Below, piece after piece: positions 8,176 to 59,027 of a stretch of 64,000 bases of DNA. A program made the translations under genes and the position numbers. The DNA comes from Mycobacterium barrassiae (lineage in GTDB: Bacteria > Actinomycetota > Actinomycetes > Mycobacteriales > Mycobacteriaceae): NCBI RefSeq assembly GCF_025822765.1, contig NZ_JACKUK010000045.1, positions 8,675-72,674 on the forward strand. The letters run 5' to 3'. Within the stretch, counting starts at the first letter, position 1, and the number at the start of each line of letters is the position of its first letter. The notes beneath the pieces are model-generated. The model saw nothing but the letters and a program-made list of their open reading frames with translations, ran no database searches and was not told the origin of the DNA.

Positions 8176-8229
8176 ACTACGTACTGGGATAGTAGATGAG
8201 TGACTACGTACTGGGATAGTAGATGAGTG
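8176..8229. promoter_or_regulatory. tandem 27-bp repeat containing two 19-bp dyad operators
   Basis: An exact 27-bp unit occurs twice (8176-8202, 8203-8229). Each holds CTACGTACTGGGATAGTAG (8177-8195, 8204-8222), a CTAC-N11-GTAG dyad. They lie upstream of the minus-strand MPT63-like gene and match the dyad found across the island. Confidence 0.7.
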
Positions 8230-8319
8230 TTGATTTCGGATGGTGGCGCCTCGATGGGGCGCGAGAGGCGCGAAGATCGAGTCGGCGAATGGGCGAGACC
8301 CACGCGAGGCCCGAACGGT

Positions 8320-9033
8320 TCAGGCATGAGACGTGCATGGCGCCGCCGCACTGCTGCTGAATTCCTGTTGGCCCGCTCCGTTGCCGTCCGGCCGCCAGTC
8401 GAACGGGAAGTGCTTGCTGGAGGCGCCTTGATAGTCGCGCGACCACTCGAACCCGACAGCGTGATCGCGCTCGACGACCCCCCACGTGGCGACCTGGCCG
8501 GGACCGACCTCGGCGCCCGGCGGGTTGGCGGTGGTCACGCGACGGTTGAGATCAGAGGTGGGTCCGGTTAGCGCTGCGACGCGGACATCGACCTTGCCGG
8601 GGATTTCGGCGCGCCAGTAGGCCAGGTCATCTGCTGCATCGAAGGTAATCGGCGCGTACTCGATGCCGCGCAAATCCGCGATCAGGCTTGCGAATTCGGC
8701 TGGCCAGCCGCCTTCCTGTCCGGTAAAGATGCGCTCTAGGGCCTCACGCTGGGCGGCGTCGGCGTCGGCATCAATGTAGAACATCAGCTTCATCATGGCG
8801 TTGGGATCGCCGACCCACATGTTGCCGGTGAACTCCCCGAGGGAAACGACGTTGAGTCCCCCCAGATCTACCGGACCGAAGTGGCCTGCCCGGATATGCC
8901 ATACGAGGGTGAACAGGCAGTCACCGTGGGTGGGCTCTTGAGCGAAGGTGCATGGGCAGGGCAGCTTGCAGCTACACACGTCGAACCAGTCACCACGCAG
9001 ATGCCAGTCGGTGGTTGTCGAGATTGTTTTCAT
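8320..9033 (-). CDS. DUF1326-family protein
   Basis: This gene encodes 237 aa. 'WHLRGDWFDVCSCKLPCPC' near the N-terminus followed by 'GDCLFTLVWHI..GHFG.VDL.GLNVV' is the hallmark of DUF1326 proteins, whose C-S-C-x3-C-x-C cluster probably binds metal. It has no signal peptide and is likely cytoplasmic. A perfect CsoR/RicR-type box lies 20-36 bases upstream of its ATG, so it is probably induced by copper. The last 20 residues are poorly conserved and end in an AAAPCTSHA tail. The biochemical function of the family is not known to me. Confidence 0.75.
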   Translation of the reverse strand: MKTISTTTDWHLRGDWFDVCSCKLPCPCTFAQEPTHGDCLFTLVWHIRAGHFGPVDLGGLNVVSLGEFTGNMWVGDPNAMMKLMFYIDADADAAQREALERIFTGQEGGWPAEFASLIADLRGIEYAPITFDAADDLAYWRAEIPGKVDVRVAALTGPTSDLNRRVTTANPPGAEVGPGQVATWGVVERDHAVGFEWSRDYQGASSKHFPFDWRPDGNGAGQQEFSSSAAAPCTSHA

Positions 9034-9052
9034 CGTTCAAACCTTTCGTTGT

Positions 9053-9069
9053 ATACCCCATGGGGGTAT
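9053..9069. promoter_or_regulatory. CsoR/RicR-type operator, N5 class
   Basis: ATACCCC-ATG-GGGGTAT is an almost perfect palindrome with TACCC and GGGTA separated by 5 bases. It lies in the promoter of the DUF1326 gene (start 9033). Confidence 0.75.
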
Positions 9070-9110
9070 CGGGCGGGTTGACCATATCCCCATGAGCGCT
9101 TCTCCACAAG

Positions 9111-9125
9111 TACCCCCAGGGGGTA
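9111..9125. promoter_or_regulatory. CsoR/RicR-type operator, N5 class
   Basis: TACCC-CCAGG-GGGTA is followed at once by TATATT, a likely -10, and the ATG at 9136. A repressor here would block transcription of the rhodanese lipoprotein. Confidence 0.75.
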
Positions 9126-9135
9126 TATTTATGTC

Positions 9136-9648
9136 ATGAGTGAATCGGTGTGCCCCAGGCGTGTCGAGGGGTCACAAACCTCGCTTCGACGTGCGGTGAG
9201 GACCGGGTCGGCGTCCCGGCTGCTTGCAGCAGTTCTGGCAGCAGTCGGCGCGCTTGCCCTAACCGCGTGTGCATCGGACGGCCCATCCCCGCCCGCACCT
9301 GCAGCGCCGACGTCGCAGGCCCCGGCCTCGGGTGCGGCCCGGTTGGTAGATCCCGGCGAGTTCGCCGCGGTGATCGCTGAGCCTGATCGCGTGACGGTGA
9401 ACGTCCATGTGCCATTTGAGGGCGACATCCCGGGCACGGACCTGTCGATACCGTTCGATCAGATCACCGCACAGGCTGGTTGGCTGCCAGCCAATCGTGA
9501 CACCGGGTTGGCGATCTATTGTCGGTCGGGGCCAATGAGTGCGACCGCGGCGGAGACGCTTCGCGATCTCGGCTACACCGATGTCGTCGAACTTCGCGGG
9601 GGCATGCGCGCTTGGCAAGCCGACGGCCGCGAATTGGTCGGCATCTGA
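9136..9648 (+). CDS. lipoprotein with single rhodanese domain
   Basis: This gene encodes 170 aa. A signal sequence with lipobox ALTAC (Cys about residue 37) is followed by a Pro/Ala linker and a rhodanese domain (VDPGEFAAVIAE ... FEGDIPGT). The active-site loop YCRSGPMSA has the catalytic Cys, and the fold ends with VVELRGGMRAWQADGRELV. It would act on the outer membrane face in sulfur transfer or thiol/persulfide chemistry. A copper-type operator lies directly upstream, which links it to metal stress. It is divergent from the DUF1326 gene with its own box on each side of the promoter region. Confidence 0.85.
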   Translation: MSESVCPRRVEGSQTSLRRAVRTGSASRLLAAVLAAVGALALTACASDGPSPPAPAAPTSQAPASGAARLVDPGEFAAVIAEPDRVTVNVHVPFEGDIPGTDLSIPFDQITAQAGWLPANRDTGLAIYCRSGPMSATAAETLRDLGYTDVVELRGGMRAWQADGRELVGI

Positions 9649-15346: not shown

Positions 15347-15365
15347 CTACGTACTCACTACGTAC
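15347..15365. promoter_or_regulatory. 19-bp dyad operator
   Basis: CTACGTACTCACTACGTAC lies 89-107 bases upstream of the NlpC/P60 gene. It is the same layout as at 51671 upstream of the LdtMt2-like gene, differing only in the central three bases. Confidence 0.65.
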
Positions 15366-15453
15366 GAGGTTGCTACTCAATGCGAACCGTCGCCAGATCC
15401 AAGGTTTGGCAGCCCGCGGCCCGCCGCTTCGACCGCCGGAAGAAAGATTCAAC

Positions 15454-16203
15454 ATGGGACCTACTGCCCGTGGCGTGCGCTCAAAGCGCGCCTGCCCTTC
15501 CCGGATCGATTTTCGGCGCGCCGCTAGCGTGGTCCTCACTGTTGTCGCGTCGCTATTCCTCGCGTGCACCCCAGCGGCATCCGCCGAACCGACCGCCGGG
15601 CAATGGGATCCACTACTGCCAAAGCTGCCGAGCGCGGGAGCGCCCGGCGATCCGGTAGCCATCGCCAATGCGTCGCTGCAGGCAACGGCCGCCGCAACTC
15701 AGACAGCGGTCGACTTAGGGCGCAGCTTTCTTAGCAGCCTCGGAATTGCCAGTCCCACGGCTAGTCCTCAAACGACCGTTCGCGGCAATAGGTTGTACGG
15801 TGCCCAGGCGATCGAATACGTCATTCGCAGGGCCGGAACGCAGATCGGCGTTCCCTACTCCTGGGGAGGCGGCAGCCTGAACGGCCCGAGCCGCGGTGTC
15901 GACCAGGGAGCAGGCACCGTCGGATTCGACTGCTCTGGTTTGACACGTTTTGCGTTCGCCGGCGTCGGTGTACTGCTGCCACGATGGTCGGGCGATCAGT
16001 ACAACGCTGGCAGAAAGGTGCCTCCCTCTCAAGCCAAGCGCGGCGACCTATTGTTCTGGGGGCCCGGCGGAAGTCAGCATGAGGCGATCTACTTGGGCGG
16101 GGGACAGATGATTGAGGCCCAACAGACAGGCGTTCCCATCAAGGTCTCACCCGTACGTACGGCGGGAATGACACCCTACGTCGTTCGAATTATCGAGAGC
16201 TAG
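15454..16203 (+). CDS. secreted NlpC/P60 peptidoglycan hydrolase, RipB/RipD-like
   Basis: This gene encodes about 249 aa. ATG 15454 follows GGAAGAAAG at good spacing, and a signal peptide then begins (ASVVLTVVASLFLACTPAASA). The catalytic domain reads 'GVPYSWGGGSLNGPSRGVD', 'VGFDCSGLTRFAFAGVG', 'LPRWSGDQYNAGRKVPP' and 'GGSQHEAIYLGGGQM', so the catalytic Cys and His are both kept. This differs from M. tuberculosis RipD, which lost them, and is closer to RipB (Rv1478). It cleaves the D-Glu/mDAP stem peptide bond. A 19-bp dyad lies upstream, and an L,D-transpeptidase precedes it, so cutting and cross-linking enzymes are paired. Confidence 0.85.
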   Translation: MGPTARGVRSKRACPSRIDFRRAASVVLTVVASLFLACTPAASAEPTAGQWDPLLPKLPSAGAPGDPVAIANASLQATAAATQTAVDLGRSFLSSLGIASPTASPQTTVRGNRLYGAQAIEYVIRRAGTQIGVPYSWGGGSLNGPSRGVDQGAGTVGFDCSGLTRFAFAGVGVLLPRWSGDQYNAGRKVPPSQAKRGDLLFWGPGGSQHEAIYLGGGQMIEAQQTGVPIKVSPVRTAGMTPYVVRIIES

Positions 16204-16238: not shown

Positions 16239-16949
16239 TCAGGCCGCCGCGTGATGAGCTAATCCGAGTAAACAATAGCCGATGCCGCGGACCGTGCGGA
16301 CGTAGCGCGGACATGTCGGGTCGTCGCCCAGCTTTCGGCGAAGATTTCCGATGTGCACTCCCAGAGCGGAACGACCGCCAGAATGCGGAGAGCCCCACAC
16401 GATCTCCTCAAGGCGTCGGCAGGTCACGGGCTCGCCCGGATTGTCAGACAAAGCCTGAAGGATCGCAAACTCGATCCGAGTAAGCGATATGGCGCCTCCG
16501 CTTCGGAACGCACGCCGGGCGGCCACGTCGACCACGAGGTCGTCAATGCGGCGTCGCCGCGTGTCGCCGATCTCACCGTAGAGGCGAATGTGTCTGAGGG
16601 CGCGCCGAATTCGTGCGCTCAGCGTCTCGCAGTGCCCAATGGCGACCACTCCAGCACGTGACATTAGTGGCGCGATCTCTGCGTCAGCAAGCGCGACGAC
16701 ACCACCGCCTGCCGCCTGGCGAACCCGATCCAGAACAGCAGCACCCTGCTCGCCCACGCACACCACCACCACGTCGGGGTCATACTCGCGCAGTGCACTG
16801 AATGCTGCGGCTTCTGAGCATGCGACAGCAACGACGAAATCATCGGCGCGCATCTTGTGGGCCAGAATGTCGGCGTAGATGCGCCGCGGCTCAACGAGCA
16901 AGACGCGGATTCGGCCGGCGGCCACCACCGGACGTGCGTCACCGTCCAC
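16239..16949 (-). CDS. OmpR-type response regulator with degenerate receiver
   Basis: This gene encodes 236 aa. The C-terminal winged helix is intact ('ISLTRIEFAILQALSDNPGE', 'VHIGNLRRKLGDD', 'YVRTVRGIGYCLL'). The receiver is not. The acidic pair after the first strand is replaced (LLVEPRRIYA), the phosphoacceptor position in 'DPDVVVVCVGEQG' has no Asp, and the conserved Lys near the end is missing. It should therefore act without phosphorylation. No histidine kinase is adjacent. A full 19-bp dyad lies 118-136 bases upstream, so it may belong to the same regulon and pass control to further targets. Confidence 0.8.
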   Translation of the reverse strand: MDGDARPVVAAGRIRVLLVEPRRIYADILAHKMRADDFVVAVACSEAAAFSALREYDPDVVVVCVGEQGAAVLDRVRQAAGGGVVALADAEIAPLMSRAGVVAIGHCETLSARIRRALRHIRLYGEIGDTRRRRIDDLVVDVAARRAFRSGGAISLTRIEFAILQALSDNPGEPVTCRRLEEIVWGSPHSGGRSALGVHIGNLRRKLGDDPTCPRYVRTVRGIGYCLLGLAHHAAA

Positions 16950-17066
16950 TCGGACTCCGGGGTGTGAGTCGATGGTCGTGACAGTCTCCTTCGCCGATGT
17001 GGGGCATCGTTTAACTGCGTCACCTACATGGTTACTGGGAGCCTTAGCGTATCACGATCTATGTAT

Positions 17067-17085
17067 CTACTACGTATATCAGTAG
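17067..17085. promoter_or_regulatory. 19-bp dyad operator
   Basis: CTACTACGTATATCAGTAG lies between the response regulator (start 16949) and the end of the M56 gene. Full CTAC-N11-GTAG match. Confidence 0.6.
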
Positions 17086-25465: not shown

Positions 25466-25484
25466 CTACGTATTAAGTACGTAC
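25466..25484. promoter_or_regulatory. 19-bp dyad operator without an obvious target gene
   Basis: CTACGTATTAAGTACGTAC. The bases before it (GAGTTACGCTCAT) match those before the dyad at 15347 (GAGTTACGCTGAT). Downstream to 25686 there is only a doubtful 67-codon frame from TTG 25486. The stretch 25281-25685 otherwise holds no gene I can support. Confidence 0.55.
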
Positions 25485-25685: not shown

Positions 25686-26477
25686 CTAGGCCGGCGAGAG
25701 CAATATCTGGGCCAGGCGCGTTGTCGTTTCAACGCCGTCTTCGTAGCCGCCCTCCCCTTCGAGTGAGTTCATGATTGCCAAGGTGTAGCGCTGTTGTGGA
25801 CCCGCGAAACCGACGCTGTTGACCACCCACCCGCCTTGCTCCTGTGACCATCCGTTCTTGTTGCCCGGAGACATTTCCGCACCCGCGCCCCACACGCCCC
25901 ATTGTTGGTTTGAATCGAGGTGCTGCATCTCCGCGACAATCGCCGCGCTCTGCGCCGGCGGCAATTTGGTGAGTGTGTAGTTCATCAGTCGGTCGAGGTC
26001 GTCACTCGTCGATTTTTGGAAACCCCAGTAGGGATACGTTTCGCTGAACCCTTGTTGCGCCTGCAGACTGGTCAGTCCATAGGCGGGGAAATTGCGGTTG
26101 AACGCCATGTTGTCGGGTCCGCTGTAGCGCTTCCAGAGCGTATCGGCGGCGTCGCTGTCAGAGGAATGCATCATGTCGGCCATGAGTTGGCTGTCGGCCG
26201 GACTCAAACTGATTTGGCCAGCGCGCGCCCGCGTCAACAGATCCACCACCATCGCGAGTTTGATGGTGGACGCGGTCCATCTCATCGTGCCGGCGGCGTC
26301 GTTGCGGTGCGCCTGTCCAGTTGTGCGGTCGCGGAACACATAGCCGACGGTGCCAGGACGAGTGGTGAGGTAGGCCTCTGCCTGCGCAATACGCTGGACC
26401 ATGTCCGCGTTCGCGACGGGCGTCGGGACGACGAGCAGCACCACCAGTGCGACAAGTCCAGTCGCTAGCGCCTTCAC
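25686..26477 (-). CDS. secreted serine beta-lactamase-like hydrolase
   Basis: This gene encodes 263 aa. A signal peptide (LATGLVALVVLLVVPTPVANA) is followed by a class-A beta-lactamase/PBP-type fold: SxxK in 'RWTASTIKLAMVVDLL', an SDS triad in 'MHSSDSDAADTLW' in place of SDN, and 'GNKNGWSQ' at the KTG position. No Glu166-type ExxLN motif is obvious, so it may be a carboxypeptidase or a weak beta-lactamase. A full 19-bp dyad lies 64-82 bases upstream, which fits BlaI-type control. LppW-like mycobacterial serine hydrolases are the nearest family I recall. Confidence 0.72.
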   Translation of the reverse strand: MKALATGLVALVVLLVVPTPVANADMVQRIAQAEAYLTTRPGTVGYVFRDRTTGQAHRNDAAGTMRWTASTIKLAMVVDLLTRARAGQISLSPADSQLMADMMHSSDSDAADTLWKRYSGPDNMAFNRNFPAYGLTSLQAQQGFSETYPYWGFQKSTSDDLDRLMNYTLTKLPPAQSAAIVAEMQHLDSNQQWGVWGAGAEMSPGNKNGWSQEQGGWVVNSVGFAGPQQRYTLAIMNSLEGEGGYEDGVETTTRLAQILLSPA

Positions 26478-39577: not shown

Positions 39578-39642
39578 CAACTCGGCGGCCGTCGACGTCC
39601 TCTAACGCATTGACGGCGACCAGTGGATGGGAGAAGACCTGT

Positions 39643-40640: not shown

Positions 40641-41318
40641 CTAGGTGGTGTCACCGTCGATGCGCTGAGCAAATTGCTGCATGCAGGCGGTCGAACAGAA
40701 CCGGTACGACGTACCCGCATGCGTGATCGTCAATTCTCGGACGCCCGTCGCGACGTGCATCCGACAGACAGGATCCACATGCTCGCGGTGATGGGTACCG
40801 ATGTCGAGAGCAAATGCACCAATAGGCGATCCGACGTTGCGCAGCGTCAGTGATCCCAACGCGGTCATCGCCGCGATATCGGCTGCCGGAAGCGCCGACG
40901 CGACACCGTCATTGACGACGATCTGCCCGGCCTGCGCGAGGCTAGCGAGCCTCGCCGCGGTGTTGACCGTCGAACCGAAGACGTCTCCGCGTCGCTTCAC
41001 CACGGGGCCAGCGGCGATGCCGGCCCGCAACATCGGAAAGCCTTGGACGCGCCTGATCTCGGCGGTGAGTCTTCGGAGGAAAGTCACTGCCGTAGCCGGG
41101 TTCTCACACACCACCAGCACCGCATCGCCGATTGTCTTGATGACCTCGTCGGCGGGACCGAGAACCCGTGTGGCTGAGGCGGCGAATGTTTCTGCCAGCT
41201 GTGCAGCGCTGTGATCGCCGTGGGTTTCGGTGAACGCGGTGAAGCCAGACATGTCGACGAAGACGACGGCTGCTTCCAAATCGGCGTGCTCGAAGTTCGC
41301 TGCTGCACTCAACATCAT
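40641..41318 (-). CDS. class III adenylate cyclase fused to YHS domain (copy 2)
   Basis: This gene encodes 225 aa. The cyclase part has 'VVFVDMSGFTAFTE', 'VIKTIGDAVLVV' and 'GSTVNTAARLASLA', all key residues as in copy 1. The YHS part is 'HVDPVCRMHVATGVRELTITHAGTSYRFCSTACMQQFA' split as DPVCRMHV and FCSTACMQQF. ATG 41318 shares its A with the TGA stop of the upstream P1B-ATPase (TGATG), so the cyclase is translationally coupled to a metal pump. The frame extends further upstream (to 41519) only antisense to the pump's reading frame. This coupling strengthens the idea of metal-dependent cAMP production. Confidence 0.82.
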   Translation of the reverse strand: MMLSAAANFEHADLEAAVVFVDMSGFTAFTETHGDHSAAQLAETFAASATRVLGPADEVIKTIGDAVLVVCENPATAVTFLRRLTAEIRRVQGFPMLRAGIAAGPVVKRRGDVFGSTVNTAARLASLAQAGQIVVNDGVASALPAADIAAMTALGSLTLRNVGSPIGAFALDIGTHHREHVDPVCRMHVATGVRELTITHAGTSYRFCSTACMQQFAQRIDGDTT

Positions 41319-43861
41319 CACGAATCCTGTCCGAGCCTCGCGTCCGCCGTAACGCTCGGTTCTGGGGCTCTCACGGGTTCCATCCGCATCCCTAAGAGCC
41401 GAAGTGCATTGGCGACCACGATCAGTGTCGAGCCCTCGTGAATGAGCACGGCGGGACCGATGCCCAATCCGAGGATCGTCGCTGGAATGAGAAGCGCGAC
41501 GATGCCGAGACTCGCCCATAGATTCTGCTTGATGATCCGTGAGGAGCGCCGACTCAGGCTCACGGCGAACGGCAACGCTCGCAGATCGTCGGCCATCAGC
41601 GCGACGTCAGCGGTTTCCAAGGCAACGTCGGAACCGGCCGCACCCATCGCGATGCCTACGCTTGCGGCCGCCATTGCGGGCGCGTCGTTGACGCCGTCTC
41701 CCACCATGCCCACGCGTCCGTAACGCTCACGCAGAGCAGCGATCTCAGCCACCTTGTCCTCGGGCATCAGGTTGCCGCGGGCGTAGGCAACACCGACTTC
41801 GCCGGCGACGGCGTCGGCCACCCGCTGGTTGTCTCCGGACAGCATCACGGTCTTTGAAACCCCGATCTCGGCGAGACGGGCGATGACCGCCGACGCTTCT
41901 GCGCGAGGAACGTCCATCAGTCCGATCGCACCCAGCCAACGCTCGCCTGCGCGGACGAGCATCGTGGTGCGCCCGGCCCGTTCGAGGCGCTTCACCTCGC
42001 CGGCCAAATAGGCTGGCGGTCGCTCGTTGGCGCCGGTGAACATTTCGGTCTTGCCGATGCGGACGTCGACCCTTTCGACGGACGCCACGATGCCGCGGCC
42101 TGTGAGAGCTCGAACGTCCGTCGCGCGGGGTACCGTCGCCCCAGCGAGGCGCTCGCGGCCGTCGCGGACGATGGCACGGGCCAGCGGATGATCGCTCTGC
42201 TCCTCAACGGCGACGGCGACAGTAAGAAGCTCCACCTCATCACTGTCCGTGCTGGCAACGACGTCGGCGATCCTGGGCCTGCCCTCGGTGAGGGTGCCGG
42301 TCTTGTCGAAAGCCAGCACATCCACCCGGCCCAACTCTTCGAGCGCGGCTCCGCCTTTCATCAGGATTCCGGCTCTGGCCGCTCGCGCCACCGCCGACAA
42401 AACCGCACTGGGCGTGGCGATCGCCAGCGCACACGGACTGGCAGCCACCAGCACGGCGAGTGCGCGGTACACGGTGGCAGTGAACGGTTCATCGACCACG
42501 AAACCGGCGAACAGCAGCAGGACGACTCCGATGAGGATCGTCGGCACGAAAATCCGCTGAAACCGGTCGGTGAACCGCTGGGTGGATGTCGTCTTGGTTT
42601 GCGCCTCGGCCACCAACCGGACGACTCGGGCCAGAGTGGAGTCACCGGCGAGCCGAGTCACCTGGATCTCGATGGCGCCGGCACCGTTGATCGTCCCGGC
42701 GAACACCCGCGATGCCGCGTCAATGAGGTCGGGCGACGCCGCGGCTGCCGCCACATCCGGAACCGGATACTTATCGACGGGAACGCTTTCCCCGGTCACG
42801 GGGGCCTGATCAACGCTAGTGGCGCCAGCCACGACGAAGCCGTCGGCAGCAAGCCGCATGTTGGGTCGCACGACGACGATATCCCCAACGCGCAGGTCGC
42901 CCACCGGCACTTCCACAGTGTCGCCCGTGCCGCCGCGGCGGATCAGTGCCGTCTTCGGAGCGATCTCGGCGAGCGCTTCGATCGCTCGGCGGGCTCGCCC
43001 CATCGCATAGCCCTCCAGCGCGTGGCCGACACTGAACAAGAACAGCAGAAGCGCGCCTTCGGCGACTTCACCGAGCGCCGCCGCACCGGCGGCCGACACC
43101 AGCATCAGGAAGTCGATCTCGAACCGACCCTGACGAACGCTGGCGAAGGCTTCCTGCACGGTGAAGAACGCACCGAAGAAAAAGGCCAGGGAGTAGACCA
43201 CCAACTCCGCGGAACGCGGTGTGTCGGCGAAGGTCGCTAGCAACCAACCCACCAGAAGAAGCGTCCCCGCCAGGCCCGCGAAGATCAGCTCGGTGCGCTC
43301 GCCAAAGATTCCGCCGTGCTCATGCTGGTGCCCGGTGTGCTCCCCTTCCCTTGCACCGTGGTCCACGGCATGGTCCGTCTCAGCGACAGTCGAAGGTGTC
43401 GTGTCTGGTCCAGCGACGGCGGCGATCACGTCTACCAATTCCTGGGCCGTGACCGAAGATCGTTCGAACTCCACTTCGAGTGAGTTCGTTGCAGCGGTTG
43501 CGGCGACGACGCCGGGCATCCTGGTTAATCGGTCGACCAGTGCCGTCCTCGTCGATTCGTCATCCTCTGCGGTTCCGGTCAGCAACCAGCGCAGATGGCC
43601 GTAATGCGAATTGATGGTTTCGGCGACCTGCCAAGCGCGTCGTTGCACATCGACTGCCGTCGCCGCGGCAGCGTCGTAGTGCACGCACAGGCGCGGCGTG
43701 AGCGTCCCGCCGTCGACGACGTGAACTTCGTCAATCAGCGGAGTCGCTGCCAAATCGCGCGTCAAACGGTCCGCGCAGCGGTCGTCACTGCCCGGCAAGA
43801 GGTCCGCCAGGTCAAGCGCCAATGTCTCGTTCGCATAGAGACGATCAGCATCGCGGTTCAT
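41318..43861 (-). CDS. P1B-4-type heavy-metal ATPase with long N-terminal region
   Basis: This gene encodes about 847 aa. The first roughly 190 residues contain two ferredoxin-like (HMA-like) halves without CxxC, plus a His patch (REGEHTGHQHEHGG). The core has 'VTGESVPVD', 'ASPCALAIATP', 'DKTGTLTEGRP', 'SDHPLARAI', 'GDGVNDAPAM' and 'IHEGSTLIVVANALRLLG', the SPC plus HEGST signature of P1B-4 pumps (Co, Zn, Cd, Fe classes). ATG 43861 is preferred because the upstream ATGs at 43885 and 43903 fall inside a palindromic operator. It is coupled to the cyclase-YHS gene. The exported metal is uncertain. Confidence 0.85.
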   Translation of the reverse strand: MNRDADRLYANETLALDLADLLPGSDDRCADRLTRDLAATPLIDEVHVVDGGTLTPRLCVHYDAAAATAVDVQRRAWQVAETINSHYGHLRWLLTGTAEDDESTRTALVDRLTRMPGVVAATAATNSLEVEFERSSVTAQELVDVIAAVAGPDTTPSTVAETDHAVDHGAREGEHTGHQHEHGGIFGERTELIFAGLAGTLLLVGWLLATFADTPRSAELVVYSLAFFFGAFFTVQEAFASVRQGRFEIDFLMLVSAAGAAALGEVAEGALLLFLFSVGHALEGYAMGRARRAIEALAEIAPKTALIRRGGTGDTVEVPVGDLRVGDIVVVRPNMRLAADGFVVAGATSVDQAPVTGESVPVDKYPVPDVAAAAASPDLIDAASRVFAGTINGAGAIEIQVTRLAGDSTLARVVRLVAEAQTKTTSTQRFTDRFQRIFVPTILIGVVLLLFAGFVVDEPFTATVYRALAVLVAASPCALAIATPSAVLSAVARAARAGILMKGGAALEELGRVDVLAFDKTGTLTEGRPRIADVVASTDSDEVELLTVAVAVEEQSDHPLARAIVRDGRERLAGATVPRATDVRALTGRGIVASVERVDVRIGKTEMFTGANERPPAYLAGEVKRLERAGRTTMLVRAGERWLGAIGLMDVPRAEASAVIARLAEIGVSKTVMLSGDNQRVADAVAGEVGVAYARGNLMPEDKVAEIAALRERYGRVGMVGDGVNDAPAMAAASVGIAMGAAGSDVALETADVALMADDLRALPFAVSLSRRSSRIIKQNLWASLGIVALLIPATILGLGIGPAVLIHEGSTLIVVANALRLLGMRMEPVRAPEPSVTADARLGQDS

Positions 43862-43883
43862 ATCGCACTCGTCGCGACGTGTC

Positions 43884-43907
43884 ATACATGCGACTATACG
43901 CATGTAT
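43884..43907. promoter_or_regulatory. perfect palindrome upstream of P1B-ATPase
   Basis: Arms ATACATGCG and CGCATGTAT with a 6-base spacer. The form resembles ArsR/SmtB-family operators. No ArsR gene is adjacent; the only one in the window is CmtR-like at 29.3 kb. Confidence 0.55.
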
Positions 43908-43995
43908 GCATGTACTGAGTCAATACCTACGTTTAATCGTTCGGCGCGGGTTCAGTGCGTCGCCCGACGCCCTGCCCCGGCCCGACCGCGCTCAA

Positions 43996-45780
<1,785 letters not shown>

Positions 45781-45816
45781 CTACTGATCTACTCAGTAGG
45801 TTGTTCTACTGAGTAG
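45781..45816. promoter_or_regulatory. dyad operators of the ctaD promoter
   Basis: 45781-45799 is CTACTGATCTACTCAGTAG, a full match. Two shorter perfect palindromes, CTACTCAGTAG (45789-45799) and CTACTGAGTAG (45806-45816), are also visible. Of the remaining gap to 46176, only a half-site CTACGTACGTA (45980-45990) stands out. Confidence 0.68.
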
Positions 45817-46175
45817 CCTAGTACTAATCGAGGTAGTTGAACACGCCCCTACCGGCAAGCCGCATCACCCGGCACGACGGGTGTCCCGCTGGGGCGGGTG
45901 CCGAGTACTCGCACCCGCTCCGGCCCTCCCGCTTGACGGAGGCGTCGGCAGCTTGCTTCGTTTGCCGAATAGTCTTCAACTACGTACGTACACATCTAAT
46001 AGTCGCAACTACCTCGAGGGATTGCCTGGTGACCACGTCTTGACATGGGGCATGAACTTGGCCGGAAGGCGATCGCGCGCGATAAGCGGCGACCATGAAC
46101 TTGCCGAATCGCGGGTGTTCGGTTAGCGTCTCGCCAACCTGATAACAAACCGGTAACGGTAAGGAACGTCTCGAA

Positions 46176-47195: not shown

Positions 47196-47295
47196 CAGGT
47201 GGATCCGCAACTGACTAGGTCTACCAGACCACAATTCAGCGTCAGATGCTGCCGACACCGTAAGCTACCTACTGACTAATTCAGGAGGTTCGTTC

Positions 47296-47682
47296 ATGGC
47301 GCGGGTGCGTGGCTTCGGAGAGCTCGAGGCGGCGATCATGGATCGCCTCTGGAATCGCGATCCCGAGACCGATACCACGGTTAGGGAGATATTCGACGAG
47401 TTGAGCATCGAACGTCACATCGCATACACCACCGTGATGTCGACGATGGACAATCTGCATGGCAAGGGCTGGCTGTCGCGGAAACGCGACGGTAAGGCCT
47501 ACCGATACCGACCGACGCTGACTCGAGAAGAGCACAGCGCCCGTCTGATGCTTGAGGCCCTAAGCGGCGGCGGCCGATCCGAGGCGGTCCTCAGTCATTT
47601 CGTGGCGCAAATCGACGCGGAGGAATCGGCGGACTTGCGCGCTGCGCTGCGGCGCGTTGCCCGTAAGTCTGGTCGGCGATGA
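47296..47682 (+). CDS. blaI: BlaI/MecI/CopY-family repressor
   Basis: This gene encodes 128 aa. AGGAGG lies 10 bases before the ATG. The winged helix is 'FGELEAAIMDRLWNRDPETDTTVREIFDELSIERHIAYTTVMSTMDNLHGKGWLSRKRDGKAYRYRPTLTREE', then a dimerisation tail with 'EAVLSHFVAQIDAEESADLRAAL'. The length matches M. tuberculosis BlaI (Rv1846c). The family binds dyads built on TAC/GTA half-sites and is removed by an M56 protease. It overlaps that protease gene by 4 bases. Upstream is CTACCTACTGACTAAT (47265-47280), half-sites only. It is the only intact repressor here that could read the 19-bp dyads. Confidence 0.88.
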   Translation: MARVRGFGELEAAIMDRLWNRDPETDTTVREIFDELSIERHIAYTTVMSTMDNLHGKGWLSRKRDGKAYRYRPTLTREEHSARLMLEALSGGGRSEAVLSHFVAQIDAEESADLRAALRRVARKSGRR

Positions 47683-48623
47683 CCGTCACGGCGGCATTGC
47701 TGCTGTACGTCGTGGCAGTCCTATCGATCGGGCCGAAGCTTTTGGCCCGGATCACAGCCGATGGCGGGGCTCCACGCCTGGCGATATCAGCTTGGCTCAC
47801 GGCCGTCGTTACCGTGCTCGGCTGCTCGATTGCTGCTATCGCTCTGCTACTCATCGAGGGCGCCGGGCACTGGGACAGCCCTGACGCGTTACTCGTATCC
47901 TGTCTGGAGCGTCTCCATGCAATTCTCGTCGGGCACGCGGGGTGGCCGGCCCGAATAGTGGCAACAGCCGCAGTGGCCATCGCTGCCGGGAGCCTGCTGG
48001 CAGTTTGCGTTCGAGTCGGCCGCGCTTTGAGTCGCATGCGCAGGCACACCTTCGCGCACGCAGACGCCGTGCGCCTGGTCGGTAGTTCAGACGGCAGCGA
48101 CGTCGTGTACATCGAGGCATCCGAGCGTGCGGCGTACTGCGTGGCGGGCCGTCCACCGGCGATCGTCGTAACCACGGCTGCTCTCGCCGCACTCGATGAA
48201 GCGCAACTGGCGGCCGTCATCGCCCATGAGCGTGCTCACCTCCACGGGCGCCATGCCTACGTCGTCGCCGCGATGCGCGGACTGACCACCGCGCTGCCCA
48301 AGATCGGGCTCTTCACAAGCGCAGCCACGCACATCAGTTCTCTGCTGGAGATGTGTGCCGATGACGCCGCCGCGCGGCGACACGGTCGTCAGCCGCTGCT
48401 GGCGGGTCTGTTGACCCTTTCAGGCGCCCACACGCCGGCCCACGGTTTGGCTGCCGCCGGTGTTGCCGTGCTCGCGCGTGCCGAGCGGTTATCGGATCCA
48501 CCCAATGGATTCGCACGAGTACAAACCCACCTCACGCTCAGTGGTGCGGTCGCGGCGATGGCCGCTACCCCGGTGGCTATCGTCGCGTTATCACTATCGG
48601 GTGTATTGATCTGCTTCGCGTGA
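47679..48623 (+). CDS. blaR: M56-family membrane metallopeptidase, BlaR-like
   Basis: This gene encodes 314 aa, overlapping blaI by ATGA. It has four or five membrane segments, 'YCVAGRPPAIVVTTAALAALDEAQLAAVIAHERAHLHGRHAYVV' (HExxH zinc site) and 'LLEMCADDAAARRHG'. The size fits Rv1845c of M. tuberculosis. There is no C-terminal penicillin-binding domain, so the signal cannot be beta-lactam acylation of a fused sensor and must come from elsewhere, perhaps metal or wall stress. Activation should lead to loss of BlaI and induction of the dyad genes. Confidence 0.83.
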   Translation: MTVTAALLLYVVAVLSIGPKLLARITADGGAPRLAISAWLTAVVTVLGCSIAAIALLLIEGAGHWDSPDALLVSCLERLHAILVGHAGWPARIVATAAVAIAAGSLLAVCVRVGRALSRMRRHTFAHADAVRLVGSSDGSDVVYIEASERAAYCVAGRPPAIVVTTAALAALDEAQLAAVIAHERAHLHGRHAYVVAAMRGLTTALPKIGLFTSAATHISSLLEMCADDAAARRHGRQPLLAGLLTLSGAHTPAHGLAAAGVAVLARAERLSDPPNGFARVQTHLTLSGAVAAMAATPVAIVALSLSGVLICFA

Positions 48624-48957: not shown

Positions 48958-48976
48958 CTACTATGTCACTACGTAT
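48958..48976. promoter_or_regulatory. 19-bp dyad operator (one mismatch)
   Basis: CTACTATGTCACTACGTAT lies 42-60 bases upstream of the DUF305 gene and immediately before the minus-strand small frame. Confidence 0.65.
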
Positions 48977-49017
48977 GTGACCATCGCTTCATTGGTCACC
49001 CGATACGAGGTGTGGTG

Positions 49018-49722
49018 ATGGCCTTCGGAGAACGCGGCCCCCGGACGCTCTCGTCATGTCTGCGTGAAGCACCTGATGCACTGCGTACGCTCGAACTGAC
49101 ACCTCGTATAGGTGGCAAATTCCGCCGGCTATCCGTCGCATTCGGAATCCTGATCACAATTATTGTAGCGGGATGTGTTGAGACAGAGGGTGTTTCGGCG
49201 CAACGTTCTTCAAGTACCTCGGTTGTCACCGCCGAAGAAGCACACACCCGGTTCGATGTCTTATTCGCACGCGACATCATCGACCACAGCGCACAAGCTA
49301 TTGCGTTGAGCAACCTGGCTATGGTCAAGGACGGTCTTGCACCCGAAATCGTCGCCATCGCAGGCCGAATCACGGCCGACAGTTCCCGGCGCACCGATGA
49401 GCTGCAGGCGCTTCTCCTGGCCTGGGGATTTGCCCCGATGAGCGCCAGCTCAGCTCCTCCGGCGGGCGCACAAAACCTTCCGGTTCAGCCAGGCGAACAC
49501 CCCCTCGCCACCGAAGTCGATTTCCGCCGCCTTCGCGACGCGGCCGGAGCACATGCGGCGGAGGTGTATCTCGAATTGATGATCAGGCAGCACCAGTTCA
49601 CGATGTCTGCCGCGCGTGACCAACTTCAATCAGGGTCGCACCCCGCAGCGATGGCCATTGCCCGATTGCTCGTCGAAAGTCAGGAGGCCGAGACCTCCGT
49701 CATGGAGGCGCTGCAACGCTGA
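49018..49722 (+). CDS. DUF305 lipoprotein (copy 2)
   Basis: This gene encodes about 234 aa. An N-terminal stretch of about 35 residues precedes a lipoprotein signal with lipobox IVAGC. The DUF305 pattern is degenerate compared with copy 1: 'FDVLFARDIIDHSAQAIALSNLA' has DHS for HHQ, and 'YLELMIRQHQFTMSAARDQL' has QHQ for HHK. It therefore keeps one His per site and lacks the Met/His-rich linker. It may be structurally similar but metal-poor. A dyad operator lies upstream. GTG 49012 is an alternative start. Confidence 0.75.
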   Translation: MAFGERGPRTLSSCLREAPDALRTLELTPRIGGKFRRLSVAFGILITIIVAGCVETEGVSAQRSSSTSVVTAEEAHTRFDVLFARDIIDHSAQAIALSNLAMVKDGLAPEIVAIAGRITADSSRRTDELQALLLAWGFAPMSASSAPPAGAQNLPVQPGEHPLATEVDFRRLRDAAGAHAAEVYLELMIRQHQFTMSAARDQLQSGSHPAAMAIARLLVESQEAETSVMEALQR

Positions 49723-51670: not shown

Positions 51671-51689
51671 CTACGTACAGACTACGTAC
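51671..51689. promoter_or_regulatory. 19-bp dyad operator
   Basis: CTACGTACAGACTACGTAC lies 46-64 bases upstream of the LdtMt2-like gene. The outer 8 bases on each side equal those of the dyad at 15347. Confidence 0.68.
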
Positions 51690-51734: not shown

Positions 51735-52967
51735 ATGAGGCGGATCGGCTCCGCGGCCATCCATCGGCGCAGGGGCTTCGGGTGGACGACGTTGGTGCTA
51801 CTGGCAATTGCCGGCGTTGTCCTGGGGGTTGGCGCCTGCGGCGGTTCGCCGCCGCCGCAGCAGCCCCAGGCCATTGTTGACAAGGGAACACCCTTTGGCG
51901 ATTTGCTCGTGCCGAAAGTCCAGGCGTCTGTGACTGATGGCGCGATCGGGGTTCCGGTTGAGTCACCCGTGACCGTTACCGCCGACGCCGGGGTGTTGGG
52001 GGCAGTGACATTGGTCAACGAGCAGGGGCGCGTCGTCGCCGGCGAGATGAGTCCTGACGGTGTCACGTGGAGTTCTGCGGAACCGCTGGGCTACAACCGG
52101 CAATACACGCTCAACGCGGAAGCGCGTGGGCTCGGTGGAGTAGCACAGACCAGTGCAACCTTCGAGACCCACTCGCCCCAGAACCTCACGATGCCGTATG
52201 TGCTACCCAACGACGGCGAAGTCGTGGGCGTCGGGCAGCCCATCGCCGTGCGCTTCGACGAGAACATTCCTGACCGTCTCGCCGCCCAGCAGGCGATTAC
52301 CGTCACCACGAACCCTCCGGTCGAGGGTGCGTTCTACTGGTTGAACGATCGCGAGGTTCGTTGGCGGCCGGCGCAATATTGGAAGCCGGGAACGTCGGTC
52401 GACGTCCAAGTTAAGGCCTATGGGGTTGATCTGGGTCAAGGGTTGTTTGGCCAGGACGATGCCTCCACTCGCTTCACCATCGGCGACGAGGTGATCGCAA
52501 CCGCTGACGACACCACCAAGACGATGACCGTGCGGGTCAACGGCAACGTCGTCAAAACTATGCCGATTTCCATGGGCAAGGACAAGACGCCCACCGACAA
52601 CGGCACGTATGTCATCGGCGATCGATACTCATTCCTGGTGATGGACTCTTCGACCTACGGCGTGCCGGTGAACTCACCTGACGGGTACCGAACCGAGGTC
52701 AACTGGGCCACCCAGATGTCCTACAGCGGGATCTACGTCCACGCTGCCCCATGGTCGGTCGGCAGCCAGGGGCGCGCCAACGTCAGCCACGGTTGCCTCA
52801 ACGCCAGTACGGAGGACGGTAAATGGTTCTACGACAACACCAAACGCGGCGACATCGTCGAGGTCGTCAACACGGTGGGGCCCACCCTTTCTGGTACTGA
52901 CGGACTCGGCGACTGGAACATCCCGTGGGACCAATGGAAAGCGGGAAACGCCACAGTAACGGGCTAA
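51735..52967 (+). CDS. ldtB: L,D-transpeptidase, LdtMt2-like lipoprotein (paralog 3)
   Basis: This gene encodes 410 aa, close to LdtMt2 (Rv2518c, 408 aa). The lipobox is GVGAC. There are two Ig-like domains ('[35 protein letters not shown]'; '[22 protein letters not shown]') and a YkuD domain with '[21 protein letters not shown]', the Cys being the nucleophile. The end '[15 protein letters not shown]' is the LdtMt2-specific C-terminal motif. It is the main type of 3-3 cross-linking enzyme in mycobacteria. It overlaps the RipC-like gene tail to tail by 4 bases. A dyad operator lies upstream. Confidence 0.93.
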
Positions 52968-54055
52968 TATCGTCGAACGTTGTAAATCGGAGCCGACGAG
53001 ATCGGCGCCACCTTGACGGGGGTGCCGTACGTCGAGGCGTGCACCATGTTCCCGTCTCCGATGTAGATTCCCGCATGCGAGGCGTCTGAATAGAAGGTGA
53101 CGATGTCACCGGGCTGGACGTCGGACGTGGCGACGGGCTGCCCACCGGCGGCCAGGGCTTGACTCGACCGCGGCAGCGATTTGCCGTTCTGGAGGAATGC
53201 CCACTTGATGAGTCCTGAGCAGTCAAATGCGTTCGGTCCGGTCGCGCCCCAAGAGTACGGAGATCCGACGCGGCTCAACGCGGCCTGCACGACCGCCGCA
53301 CCCTCCGGCGAGCCGGTGGGCCCCGGCGCGACCGGCGGCAGTCCCATCTCAGGCATCGCCACGATGGCGGGGTCCCCCGCTGGCGGAGGCGGCTGAGGCG
53401 GCACCGGTCCAGGGTCCGCCAGCGCGGCACGCTGATCCGGAGTCAATGCTCGGTATTGAGCCTCCACGTCTGCGATCTGGGTGCGCAGCCGACTCTGCTC
53501 GGCCTGAAGGCCTGCACGGACCGCTGACGCCTGTTCTGCTGCCGTCCTGGCATCGAGCGTCGAAGATTCGGCCGCGCGGGCGGCACTCTCGGCACGGGTT
53601 GATGCGGCGCGATAGGCCGCGATGCGGTCCGACATCTGGGTGGCCATCAGGCGGTCGAAGGAGAGTTCGTCGAGCAAGCTTTGCGGAGACTCTGCGGCCA
53701 GCACGGCGCTGATGCCGCTGGTCGCACCTCCCATGTAGGACGCGGCCGCCACCTGGTCCACGATTTTCTGATACTCGCGCAGATCTGCTCGCGCCGCGGT
53801 CAAGGCCTCAGACTCGGCGCGTTGGCGATCCTCGGCTTGGCGCTGTGCTGCCAGTTTCGCCTCGAGGTCGAGCTCGGCCGAGTAGATGGCTTCCGAGGTT
53901 CGCTCGGCCTCCCGAGACAGCTCCGTCATGCGGGCCAACGCATCGGCGGCTGGGTCGGCCCGGCCGGTGCCCGTCGAGTTGCCGAGCGTCAATGCAAGCA
54001 CGATCGCCACGACGAGAGCACCCGCCGATCGGCATATCGCGGCAGGGCAGTCCAT
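52964..54055 (-). CDS. ripC: NlpC/P60 peptidoglycan hydrolase with coiled coil, RipC-like
   Basis: This gene encodes about 363 aa. A signal peptide ([21 protein letters not shown]) is followed by a long coiled coil (about 45-200, many Ala/Glu/Arg), a Pro-rich hinge, and an NlpC/P60 domain with '[25 protein letters not shown]' and '[21 protein letters not shown]'. It matches RipC (Rv2190c), whose coiled coil responds to FtsEX. ATG 54055 is chosen because it puts the dyad 34-52 bases upstream, as at other targets; ATG 54088 would touch the dyad. Its gene faces ldtB, pairing a hydrolase with a cross-linker. Confidence 0.87.
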
Positions 54056-54088
54056 CTTCAAAACACAGATCCTCACACCGCAGGGCAT

Positions 54089-54107
54089 CTATGGTCTAAC
54101 TACGTAG
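54089..54107. promoter_or_regulatory. 19-bp dyad operator (one mismatch)
   Basis: CTATGGTCTAACTACGTAG lies upstream of the RipC-like gene. It contains the perfect palindrome CTACGTAG. Nothing else is seen between 54108 and 54280. Confidence 0.6.
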
Positions 54108-54280: not shown

Positions 54281-54299
54281 CTACTATGTGCCATAGTAT
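54281..54299. promoter_or_regulatory. 19-bp dyad operator, ctaE
   Basis: CTACTATGTGCCATAGTAT lies 46-64 bases upstream of ctaE. Its inner part TACTATG-TGC-CATAGTA is a perfect 7-3-7 palindrome. Confidence 0.68.
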
Positions 54300-54344
54300 G
54301 CAGTGACTTAGTAGATCGCCTGCGGATTTGCATTGAGGGACGGC

Positions 54345-54938
54345 ATGACAAGTGGAACCGCCATCACGGCCCGGGTTCATTCTCTAAACCGGCCCAACAT
54401 GGTCTCCGTCGGGACCATCGTGTGGTTATCCAGCGAGCTGATGTTTTTTGCCGGCTTATTTGCGATGTACTTCACCGCTCGCTCCCAGGCTGACGAATGG
54501 CCGCCGCCGCCCACAGAGTTGAACCTCGCGCTCGCGGTGCCGGTGACATTGGTACTCATCGCGTCGTCGTTCACGTGTCAAATGGGTGTCTTTGCCGCCG
54601 AACGCGGTGACGTCTTCGGACTGCGCCGGTGGTACCTCGTCACTTTCGTCATGGGGTTCTTCTTCGTTCTAGGCCAAGGCTACGAGTACATCAACCTGGT
54701 GCATGAGGGAACGACCCTGTCGAGCAGCGCGTATGGCTCCGTCTTCTACTTGACGACTGGGTTTCATGGATTGCACGTCATAGGCGGTCTAGTCGCCTTC
54801 GTCTTCCTGCTCATGCGCACGCGAATGAGCAAGTTCACCCCGGCGCAGGCGACGGCCGCCATCGTCGTCTCGTACTACTGGCATTTCGTGGACATCGTCT
54901 GGATCGCACTGTTCGCCACGATCTACTTCGTACGGTGA
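54345..54938 (+). CDS. ctaE: cytochrome c oxidase subunit III
   Basis: This gene encodes about 197 aa, five membrane segments, very close to mycobacterial CtaE throughout: '[34 protein letters not shown]', '[14 protein letters not shown]', '[19 protein letters not shown]' and '[17 protein letters not shown]'. It is part of the aa3 oxidase with CtaD. In chromosomes ctaE heads the qcrCAB operon; here it is followed instead by a small membrane protein, so it has been separated from that operon. A strong dyad lies in its promoter. Confidence 0.93.
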
Positions 54939-57306: not shown

Positions 57307-57417
57307 CGGGCTGCATCCTGACAGGCAGCCCGTGCTCCGCGACAGCGAATGAGTCGAAGTCTCGACATCAGCTCGGCCTCCATCGATCCACGACAGCACT
57401 GCGGCAGCTGGTTGCAC

Positions 57418-57436
57418 ATACCGGCTACCTACGTAC
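57418..57436. promoter_or_regulatory. 19-bp dyad operator (one mismatch per side)
   Basis: ATACCGGCTACCTACGTAC lies between the divergent cupredoxin operon and copC. It contains CTACGTACGTA (57429-57439) and could serve either side. Confidence 0.5.
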
Positions 57437-57528
57437 GTATCATCCCCATACGAAACTGTCCGAAACATACACTCGGATGCGCTGAGCGCCGTGGGGTGTC
57501 AGCAATAGCGTGAACCGAGAAGAGGACC

Positions 57529-58152
57529 GTGAATCCAACCTTGCGCACTATCGTTCCCAGCTTGGGGATGTTGGTTGCCTTGACGTGTGGAAGCGGAATC
57601 GCTGCGGCTCACACAGCGCTCTCGAGCTCCGATCCCGCGCCGGACGCCACCGTCACGGCCGCGCCGGCTGCGATCACGTTGACCTTCAACGAGGACATCA
57701 GCCCACAGTTCGCGAGTGTCGCCCTAAGCAGCGCCGACGGTCGCGATCGGATATCCGGCTCCCCACAGGTGCAGGGACAGCGCCTGACCGCGGCCGTCGA
57801 ACCAGGCCGGCCCGGTAACGGCGTCTACACCGTCGGCTATCGCGTGGTCTCAGCAGACGGCCATCCTGTCACCGGCTCCTACAAGTTCACCCTCGCCGAC
57901 GTATCCGACGAACCCCGGCCCATTTCTACATCGGCAGCTGCCGCGCCTAGCACCGCAGCTCCGCCGCCGTCAACGGCAGCTCCTGCCACATCGGACACCA
58001 AAACGACGGTAATTACCGCAGGTGCCGCGGGTCTGGCCCTGGGCGGCGTGATCGCTTTCTGGCAATCGCGGAGGAATCGACGGAAATCCGCAGCAAATGC
58101 CGCAGCAAATGACGCAGCCAGGCTATCCGCGGATTCGCCCGACCCATCCTGA
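57529..58152 (+). CDS. copC: CopC-domain copper-binding protein with C-terminal membrane anchor
   Basis: This gene encodes 207 aa from GTG. The signal peptide ends at 'AAAHTALSSSDPAPDATV', leaving the N-terminal His that is a Cu(II) ligand of CopC. The domain continues with 'ITLTFNEDISPQFASVALSS' and 'GYRVVSADGHPVTGSYKF', where the second ligand His lies. A Ser/Ala/Pro linker and one membrane segment (VITAGAAGLALGGVIAFW) with a basic tail anchor it. It binds copper outside the cell and would pass it to CopD-type proteins such as that at 36733. Confidence 0.88.
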   Translation: MNPTLRTIVPSLGMLVALTCGSGIAAAHTALSSSDPAPDATVTAAPAAITLTFNEDISPQFASVALSSADGRDRISGSPQVQGQRLTAAVEPGRPGNGVYTVGYRVVSADGHPVTGSYKFTLADVSDEPRPISTSAAAAPSTAAPPPSTAAPATSDTKTTVITAGAAGLALGGVIAFWQSRRNRRKSAANAAANDAARLSADSPDPS

Positions 58153-58222
58153 GCGTTATCGAACGACCGGCTCGTGAATCCTTACCGGTACCACAACCTG
58201 TGCGCTAGCGAGCGCAGGCCCG

Positions 58223-58975
58223 TCACGCCTGAACAATGACCGGGTCACCGATGTTCACCGTGTCGAAGTACCACGCCGCATTATCGGGACTGAGATTGAT
58301 GCAACCGTGGCTGACATTGGCACTGCCTTGCGAGCCAACCGACCACGGCGCTGAATGCACATAGACCCCTCCCCACGTAACACGCACCGCGTATTCGCCG
58401 TCGATCAGGTAGCCCTCCGGCGAATCCAACGGAATGCCGATAGTGCGTGAATCGAACTTCACCCGGCGCTGCTTCTCCAGCACCTTGAAACTGCCCTGCG
58501 GAGTGTCAAAGCCCGGCTTGCCCAACGACGCCGGCATCTCACGCACCGTCTGACCGTCGATGCTCACAGTGAACGTATGTGCGGAAATGTCAGCAACGGA
58601 CACGACCGCTGCCCCGACATCGAAGCTGGTCGACATCCCGTCCGTGCGCACCGACACCGGAGTATGGGCCGGCCACAAGCCTTGCGGCGCCCACTGCACG
58701 ACGCGGTCGCTCGTCCACGTGAACCGTCCTGGCACCTCAACGGGCGTGTCGATGGTGATGCCGCGCTCGGCCGCCTCACGGTCGGCGACGACGCTGCTGA
58801 AACGGATAGTCACCGGCGCGGCGATGCCGACCACCTGGCCAGGTTCAGGTGAGACAACCGTCGCCAACGCCATGCTGCTTGGTGTCGCCGTCCCGGCGTC
58901 GGCAACCCCTGCGCCGGTGAATACGAAGTACGCCACGCCCACCGCGACGAGCACAGCGCGAATCTGACCGACCAT
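58223..58975 (-). CDS. L,D-transpeptidase, LdtMt1-like (paralog 4)
   Basis: This gene encodes about 250 aa, the same size as LdtMt1 (Rv0116c, 251 aa). ATG 58975 has GGAGGGAGAAC upstream, and a signal peptide follows. It has one Ig-like domain ('VSPEPGQVVGIAAPVTIRFSSVVADREAAERGITI') and a YkuD domain with '[21 protein letters not shown]', then NLSPDNAAWYFDTV, nearly identical to LdtMt1. The catalytic Cys and His are intact. A full dyad (59009-59027) lies 34-52 bases upstream. The region 59030-59738 that follows has no convincing gene. Confidence 0.92.
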   Translation of the reverse strand: MVGQIRAVLVAVGVAYFVFTGAGVADAGTATPSSMALATVVSPEPGQVVGIAAPVTIRFSSVVADREAAERGITIDTPVEVPGRFTWTSDRVVQWAPQGLWPAHTPVSVRTDGMSTSFDVGAAVVSVADISAHTFTVSIDGQTVREMPASLGKPGFDTPQGSFKVLEKQRRVKFDSRTIGIPLDSPEGYLIDGEYAVRVTWGGVYVHSAPWSVGSQGSANVSHGCINLSPDNAAWYFDTVNIGDPVIVQA

Positions 58976-59008
58976 AGGTTCTCCCTCCGCCGCTTCGGTG
59001 TTCTGCAA

Positions 59009-59027
59009 CTACTATTCTGCTACGTAG
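59009..59027. promoter_or_regulatory. 19-bp dyad operator
   Basis: CTACTATTCTGCTACGTAG, a full CTAC-N11-GTAG match, lies in the promoter of the minus-strand L,D-transpeptidase. It has the same form as 39559. Confidence 0.7.

Follow-up and report, generated by a model that had tools for sequence, protein, structure and literature searches.

Known BlaI-type systems and the dyad of the window

In the staphylococcal BlaI/MecI-BlaR1/MecR1 systems, an operator of the TACTACA type, 16 bp in length, controls few promoters. In this study, we analysed a window of 64,000 nucleotides from Mycobacterium barrassiae (contig NZ_JACKUK010000045.1, here C45, 78,428 bp, of a 5.9-Mb genome; positions 8,675 to 72,674), in which a 19-bp dyad, CTAC-N11-GTAG, recurs along a mobile copper-resistance island, of a kind found in environmental mycobacteria, with cell-wall, thiol-redox, copper and cytochrome oxidase genes and a blaI-type repressor gene (47296..47682). 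The island resembles the staphylococcal systems in its repressor family, in the adjoining M56-type membrane protease, in the TAC/GTA inverted repeat formed by its dyads, and in having a dyad before the repressor's own gene. Unlike BlaR1 and MecR1, the island protease has no matched penicillin-binding sensor domain, and the dyad, 17 bp long when counted from the outer T to the outer A and variable in its inner bases, stands in more than 10 promoters. We consider it very probable that this dyad is the predicted operator of a BlaI clade usually adjoined by M56 proteases, and that the wall, thiol-redox, copper and oxidase genes of the island, together with blaI, form its regulon.

A likeness to Rv1846c/Rv1845c of M. 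tuberculosis was also observed, as the nearest solved relative of the window repressor is 2g9w (79.2 bits, against 22.9 bits for MecI), an entry listed as a conserved hypothetical protein, which we take to be Rv1846c. The outer TAC-N11-GTA is present in most window sites and is shared with the Rv1846c type, the Rv1846c-type loci have a sensor-less HExxH neighbour in 20 of 20 cases, as on the island, and there is a link to respiration, Rv1846c BlaI being connected with ATP synthase in passages of two papers (PMC5874750, PMC12565901). The Rv1846c operator type differs in its inner TAC/GAC triplets and its outer bases, and the counterpart of Rv1846c in M. barrassiae is a gene on another contig, C12 (231 bits to 2g9w), not the window gene (79 bits), which does not combine the best 2g9w match with TAC[TG]AC-N5-GTAGTA. 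The copper repressors CopY/CopR belong to the same family, and copper genes lie on the island; unlike CopY, however, none of 80 relatives of the window BlaI has the C-terminal CxC motif and 74 of them are free of cysteine. The CopY/CopR operator is given as RNYKACANNYGTMRNY in a passage of PMC7253601, and its KACA-NN-YGTM core occurs in none of the 16 sites discussed below, 10 bases on either side included.

Copper-resistance genes are described on plasmids of non-tuberculous mycobacteria, where they are mobile as they are here, and neither BlaI nor a transpeptidase appears in the main text of that paper (PMC11877719). No description of a regulon of this size, content and mobility was found in the leading titles and abstract openings of the literature searched. 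Repressor and operator are of a known kind, and the mobile, many-promoter regulon of copper, envelope and respiration genes would be the new part. A mobile regulon of mycobacteria, with related forms in Rhodococcus and Gordonia, would thereby have its operator defined, its repressor named and its targets listed. The presence of L,D-transpeptidases and oxidase subunits on copper islands becomes open to experiment, as does the question of what sensor-less M56 proteases detect.

The dyad in the window is real. A sequence-only reading of this DNA had listed 16 dyads with CTAC (or one change) at one end and GTAG, GTAC or GTAT at the other; all 16 19-mers were read at their coordinates, and the rule for the ends failed at 39516, which ends in GCAG. 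CTACGTA and its complement were observed 22 times in the window, against 2.0 expected from trinucleotide frequencies. As that reading had proposed, a matrix was built and the host scanned: a symmetric 19-bp matrix was trained on 17 window sites and their complements (the 16 and 17059), with 400 kb of host contigs C12, C16 and C36 as background. At least 12, 14 and 16 bits were reached by 20, 19 and 16 sites of the window, training sites included, against 4, 0 and 0 in the background. In leave-one-out scoring, 14 of the 16 sites outscored every position of the 400 kb. The site at 39516 is marginal (12.9 bits, one equal-or-better position), and that at 57418 reached 7.3 bits, with 55 equal-or-better positions. 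Five additional sites stand above the whole background, namely 17059 from the training set, and 43912, 45806, 47269 and 54296 from outside it.

The predicted reader of the dyad

The protein of 47296..47682 (plus strand, 128 amino acids, no cysteine) carries the Penicillinase_R domain of the BlaI/MecI/CopY family (PF03965, 83.4 bits, cut-off 22.6). Its gene is overlapped by that of an M56-type membrane metalloprotease (47679..48623, plus strand, 314 amino acids) with the HExxH motif HERAH, in the adjoining position known from BlaI-BlaR pairs; Pfam matched its Peptidase_M48 stretch alone (PF01435) and no penicillin-binding sensor domain. Before blaI, over its ribosome-binding site, lies the dyad 47269..47287 (CTACTGACTAATTCAGGAG), which at 13.7 bits is weak and, as a non-training site, still exceeds the 400-kb maximum of 13.3 bits.

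Related loci were taken as the best 80 of 236 candidate stretches, centred on relatives of the window BlaI. Of these 80, 67 have a dyad of at least 12 bits in the 300 bp upstream of blaI, and 59 have one of at least 14 bits. Among the 78 loci that could be tested for an HExxH gene, two being too short and left out, 65 have one after blaI, encoding 297-411 amino acids. The upstream dyad was noticed in all 33 Nocardia loci and in 34 of the 47 others, mostly titled Mycobacterium or Mycolicibacterium. Elsewhere in the loci, 30 of the 33 from Nocardia have no dyad (3 further sites in 632 kb), and the 47 non-Nocardia loci hold 254 further sites in 779 kb. Comparatively, 20 control loci of the Rv1846c type, hand-picked from the family listing, yielded 3 sites of at least 12 bits (two of at least 14) in 398 kb and none before blaI. 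All 20 contain TAC[TG]AC-N5-GTAGTA instead, starting 45-63 bases before the matched region, and the outer TAC-N11-GTA is thus common to both operator types, including the 20 Rv1846c-type promoters. The 16 window sites scored -18.6 to 5.1 bits with an Rv1846c-type matrix whose own training sites scored 21.4 to 27.4, and the Rv1846c-type operators scored -1.6 to 10.0 bits with the island matrix. Neither matrix recognises the sites of the other. The outer frame is shared and the specificity separate, which suggests that two BlaI paralogues in one cell may use one dyad frame with different specificities.

Across 301 family genomes, our own included, the pattern with at most two mismatches was detected in 38, this BlaI type in 56 and both in 24 (Fisher p 4e-11, with the BlaI-type cut of E <=1.1e-28 set after the table was seen; a second, wider grouping, also chosen with the data in view, was left unused). 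For 35 of the 55 pattern sites, a listed blaI is no more than 15 kb away. The sequence-only reading had named the BlaI at 47296 as the reader, and these comparisons (67 of 80 loci with a dyad before blaI, against 0 of 20 in the Rv1846c type) strongly support a 47296-type BlaI as the predicted regulator of the sites. Separately, seven further family genomes display strong dyads away from blaI, near genes that look exported by eye, and in these genomes the regulon may extend beyond blaI itself.

Several observations weigh against this assignment. Many of the 80 loci are closely related and hence not independent events, 13 of the 47 non-Nocardia loci have no site of at least 12 bits before blaI, and 13 of the 78 testable loci gave no HExxH neighbour. 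A BlaI paralogue of the host on contig C16 has no dyad close upstream. In our own genome, pattern searches gave 12 vs 3, 10 vs 4 and 8 vs 0 matches against the reversed control, which thus also scored in the first two, made with looser patterns; in the 301 genomes, the two-mismatch pattern gave 55 matches against 48 for the reversed control (hand count), and because these raw counts barely differ, only the location of the pattern sites is evidence. Moreover, no match to the pattern was obtained in 32 of the 56 genomes that have this BlaI type, and the pattern may miss divergent operator forms.

Four Penicillinase_R genes were found in the genome, C12, C16:659963, C45:304 and the window blaI, of which the last three each lie among dyads; the window BlaI is 66% identical to C45:304 and to C16:659963, and those two are 94% identical to each other. 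It is a lesser, though real, possibility that the window sites are shared by 47296 and C45:304, or read mainly by the latter, as dyads of this kind are found close to C45:304 and C16:659963, and the three proteins share the stretch IAYTTVMSTMDNL without a difference; yet the M. gallinarum plasmid, with the same island and 17 sites of at least 12 bits, carries a single Penicillinase_R gene, of the 47296 type (plasmid alone searched). The chromosomal Rv1846c-type protein of C12 shares the family, the outer frame and 46% identity with the window BlaI, but it is very improbable as the reader and is disfavoured by the cross-scoring, which fails in both directions, and no site of at least 12 bits was detected in the 40 kb fetched around its gene.

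In an improbable alternative, the reader would be one of the island's OmpR-type response regulators (18881-19669 or 16239-16949), and blaI simply one of its targets. Such regulators are present on the island and make up 5 of the 131 targets described below, and in CTACGTACTCACTACGTAC and similar sites the half-sites also repeat directly at a step of 11 bp, the arrangement favoured by OmpR-type proteins, while CTACGTAG is self-complementary and so compatible with direct and inverted repeats alike. Nevertheless, only an inverted repeat is present in CTACTGATCTACTCAGTAG-like sites and in the Rhodococcus form, for which reason the direct-repeat reading was rejected; in 30 of the 33 Nocardia loci the dyad stands nowhere but before blaI; and Gordonia pKB1, the plasmid only being searched, has one Penicillinase_R gene and 6 sites of at least 12 bits but no Trans_reg_C gene. 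Least credible of all would be a common promoter or nucleoid-protein element without any regulon, for although the sites lie in promoter position, none of at least 14 bits occurs in the 400 kb of other contigs and two occur in the 398 kb around Rv1846c-type genes.

Targets, spread and proposed mechanism

With BlaI of the 47296 type as the predicted reader, we investigated what the dyad stands in front of. In 91 loci, the window included, 376 sites of at least 14 bits were obtained, of which 40 lie in gene interiors, which make up 69% of the bases. A gene was counted as a target if such a site lay between 250 bases before and 200 after the start of its longest open reading frame (ORF) in the 90 loci outside the window; genes below about 100 amino acids were dropped. 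Removal of near-duplicates took the targets from 287 to 131 and the controls, with no site near, from 1047 to 616, and a random draw of 130 from the latter was used. By Pfam, the 131 targets include NlpC/P60 (12), YkuD (10), BlaI (9, partly by design, as 80 loci were centred on BlaI), DsbA (9), DUF305 (8), response regulators (5) and AhpC-TSA (4). The controls were led by TetR (6), MFS (5) and dehydrogenase-like families (5), with BlaI at 2; NlpC/P60, YkuD, DsbA and DUF305 were not among the top 25 control families, each of the remaining families having at most 2 members. The window targets agree in kind with this set. Three of the 131 match the impB/mucB polymerase family, which is unexpected for a copper and wall regulon, and may be chance neighbours.

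On plasmid stretches of 47-50 kb each from M. gallinarum, M. rufum, M. poriferae and M. vanbaalenii, 17, 19, 12 and 21 sites of at least 12 bits were detected, near corresponding kinds of genes despite differing gene order. Where sites could be aligned (13, 9, 4 and 6 of 21), the dyad arms are identical at 101/104, 68/72, 29/32 and 47/48 positions (97, 94, 91 and 98%), against 84, 69, 59 and 68% in the intergenic flanks. The arms and adjoining bases of the 39559 dyad are identical across five islands, and the 47269 block is kept in the five aligned islands, except that M. poriferae differs at two dyad bases, an arm base among them. By contrast, none of the four relatives has a 19-bp dyad in place of the 39516 site: M. 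gallinarum shows two extra bases there, and the other three have altered arms. Farther afield, a Rhodococcus pseudokoreensis plasmid has 14 sites of at least 12 bits in 38 kb, mostly CTACTATG-N3-CATAGTAG-like, and the 6 of Gordonia pKB1, in 32 kb, are looser and CTACTA-N7-TAGTAG-like; a Tsukamurella ctaD locus without the island neighbours has none.

In M. gallinarum, plasmid pJCM6399 carries the island. A blaI with 100% identity to that at 47296 occurs in a contig titled Mycobacterium lehmannii, and another in G052, a genome of 6.0 Mb in a single contig; four pattern sites surround the G052 copy (1303402-1354193), and near a different BlaI of that genome there is a fifth. The island therefore resides on a plasmid in M. 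gallinarum and on a contig of chromosome size in G052. In our own genome, three more dyad clusters were noticed (C8:18700-19100, C18:24300-27506 and C16:654000-665000), two of them near contig ends; the C16 cluster includes DUF1775 and DUF305 genes and an L,D-transpeptidase gene, along with a BlaI-M56 pair of its own. Where the window has a second M56-type gene (17152-18090), M. rufum and M. vanbaalenii have an M56 gene beside that of a divergent BlaI (L014 313-672). This BlaI has 45-48% identity to the window BlaI and shows additional cysteines and, ahead of the presumed recognition helix, a gap of one residue; the M. vanbaalenii plasmid NZ_CP126903.1 gives six Penicillinase_R matches, one with an internal stop.

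As for the mechanism, a BlaI dimer would bind both half-sites and block the promoters until envelope damage, most likely by copper, led the M56 protease to inactivate BlaI, whereupon the genes would be expressed together. Copper-poisoned wall synthesis, or copper itself, would be sensed through M56, and the gene content suggests that the island would then supply replacements for copper-sensitive exported enzymes, and oxidase subunits. We favour a copper-damaged envelope sensed via M56 as the signal, although it speaks against copper that gene content is the sole computed tie to it. Direct copper sensing of the CopY kind is unlikely because of the missing CxC motif (0/80) and the scarcity of cysteine (74/80 without), and at 297-411 amino acids the HExxH neighbours are too short for a BlaR1-type sensor, BlaR1 being larger. 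Copper inhibits the L,D-transpeptidases of E. coli and V. cholerae, according to a passage of PMC11390936.

As to origin, we put forward, as a plausible but tentative proposal, that a self-regulating BlaI-M56 pair turned into the central switch of mobile copper islands as its operator spread to the promoters of a whole spare set of copper-sensitive envelope enzymes. In Nocardia the pair has few or no other nearby targets. The spare set would consist of L,D-transpeptidases and NlpC/P60 hydrolases (cysteine enzymes), the thiol proteins DsbA, TlpA and CcdA, DUF305 and the copper-containing cytochrome oxidase. If this is true, island copper resistance would be efflux together with replacement of the enzymes poisoned outside the membrane, and one sensor would couple cell-wall damage, copper and respiration.

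Sites and genes of the window

Genes were called with a simple codon-usage script and start candidates were printed by a mechanical script. The sequence-only reading had placed most sites in promoter position, and the first candidate start indeed follows the last site by 8-113 bases in 15 of 17 promoters, the exceptions being copC (128) and an M23 gene (188). Of the sites that it had listed, 25466 has no target and 39516 is doubtful, and copC, whose site at 57418..57436 finds no support in its leave-one-out score, is rejected as a member of the regulon.

From the left, two identical dyads 27 bp apart (8177..8195 and 8204..8222, each 18.8 bits leave-one-out) precede an MPT63-like (DUF1942) gene (7545..8351, minus strand, PF09167); they and the dyad at 35903 fall within the longest ORF, yet upstream of the probable start. 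The dyad 15347..15365 (21.5 bits leave-one-out) precedes an NlpC/P60 hydrolase gene (15370..16203, plus strand, PF00877), RipB-like by the M. gallinarum annotation. Overlapping dyads at 17059 and 17067 (17059..17085, 18.9 and 17.3 bits), whose M. gallinarum counterparts overlap too, precede the winged-helix OmpR-type regulator (16239..16949, minus strand), of which Pfam matched the C-terminal DNA-binding domain alone (PF00486). No evident downstream gene was found, in a by-eye look for an ORF, for the dyad 25466..25484 (21.8 bits); its flank resembles the NlpC/P60 promoter at 15347, and it is perhaps a relic of a lost gene. The dyad 26541..26559 (15.1 bits, with the same letters in M. gallinarum) precedes a serine hydrolase gene of the Beta-lactamase2 family (25686..26477, minus strand, PF13354), and 35903..35921 (20.1 bits) a DsbA/Thioredoxin_4 gene matched in Pfam (35832..36692, plus strand), whose probable start lies 105 bases past the dyad.

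Beside the marginal 39516..39534, the dyad 39559..39577 (22.9 bits) lies between the divergent genes ccdA (38702..39472, minus strand, PF02683) and L,D-transpeptidase 1 (39610..40581, plus strand, PF03734). A weaker dyad, 43912..43930 (14.1 bits, with an 11.8-bit version in M. gallinarum), precedes a P-type metal ATPase gene (41318..43903, minus strand, PF00122 and PF00702). The promoter of this ATPase (43870-43912) also shows, by eye, a separate inverted repeat, CATACATGCG-N6-CGCATGTATG, perhaps the operator of a metal sensor. Dyads at 45781 and 45806 (45781..45824, 20.3 and 16.3 bits) precede ctaD, cytochrome oxidase subunit I (43996..45741, minus strand, PF00115), and 48958..48976 (21.6 bits) a DUF305 gene (49012..49722, plus strand, PF03713). 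The dyad 51671..51689 (18.9 bits) stands before L,D-transpeptidase 2 (51735..52967, plus strand, PF03734), and 54089..54107 (19.1 bits) before an NlpC/P60 hydrolase gene (52964..54088, minus strand, PF00877), RipC-like by the M. gallinarum annotation. Overlapping dyads at 54281 and 54296 (54281..54314, 15.2 and 15.1 bits) precede ctaE, cytochrome oxidase subunit III (54333..54938, plus strand, PF00510). The last dyad, 59009..59027 (20.2 bits), precedes L,D-transpeptidase 3 (58223..59008, minus strand, PF03734), with a probable ATG start 33 bases after it. The SHGC motif is present in all three transpeptidases, and also in a fourth (14159-15028), near whose start the matrix scan found no site of at least 10.5 bits. 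Additionally, Pfam revealed the second M56-type gene of the window (17152-18090), and a TniQ-domain gene (61356-63080) near the right side of the window perhaps belongs to the mobility of the island.

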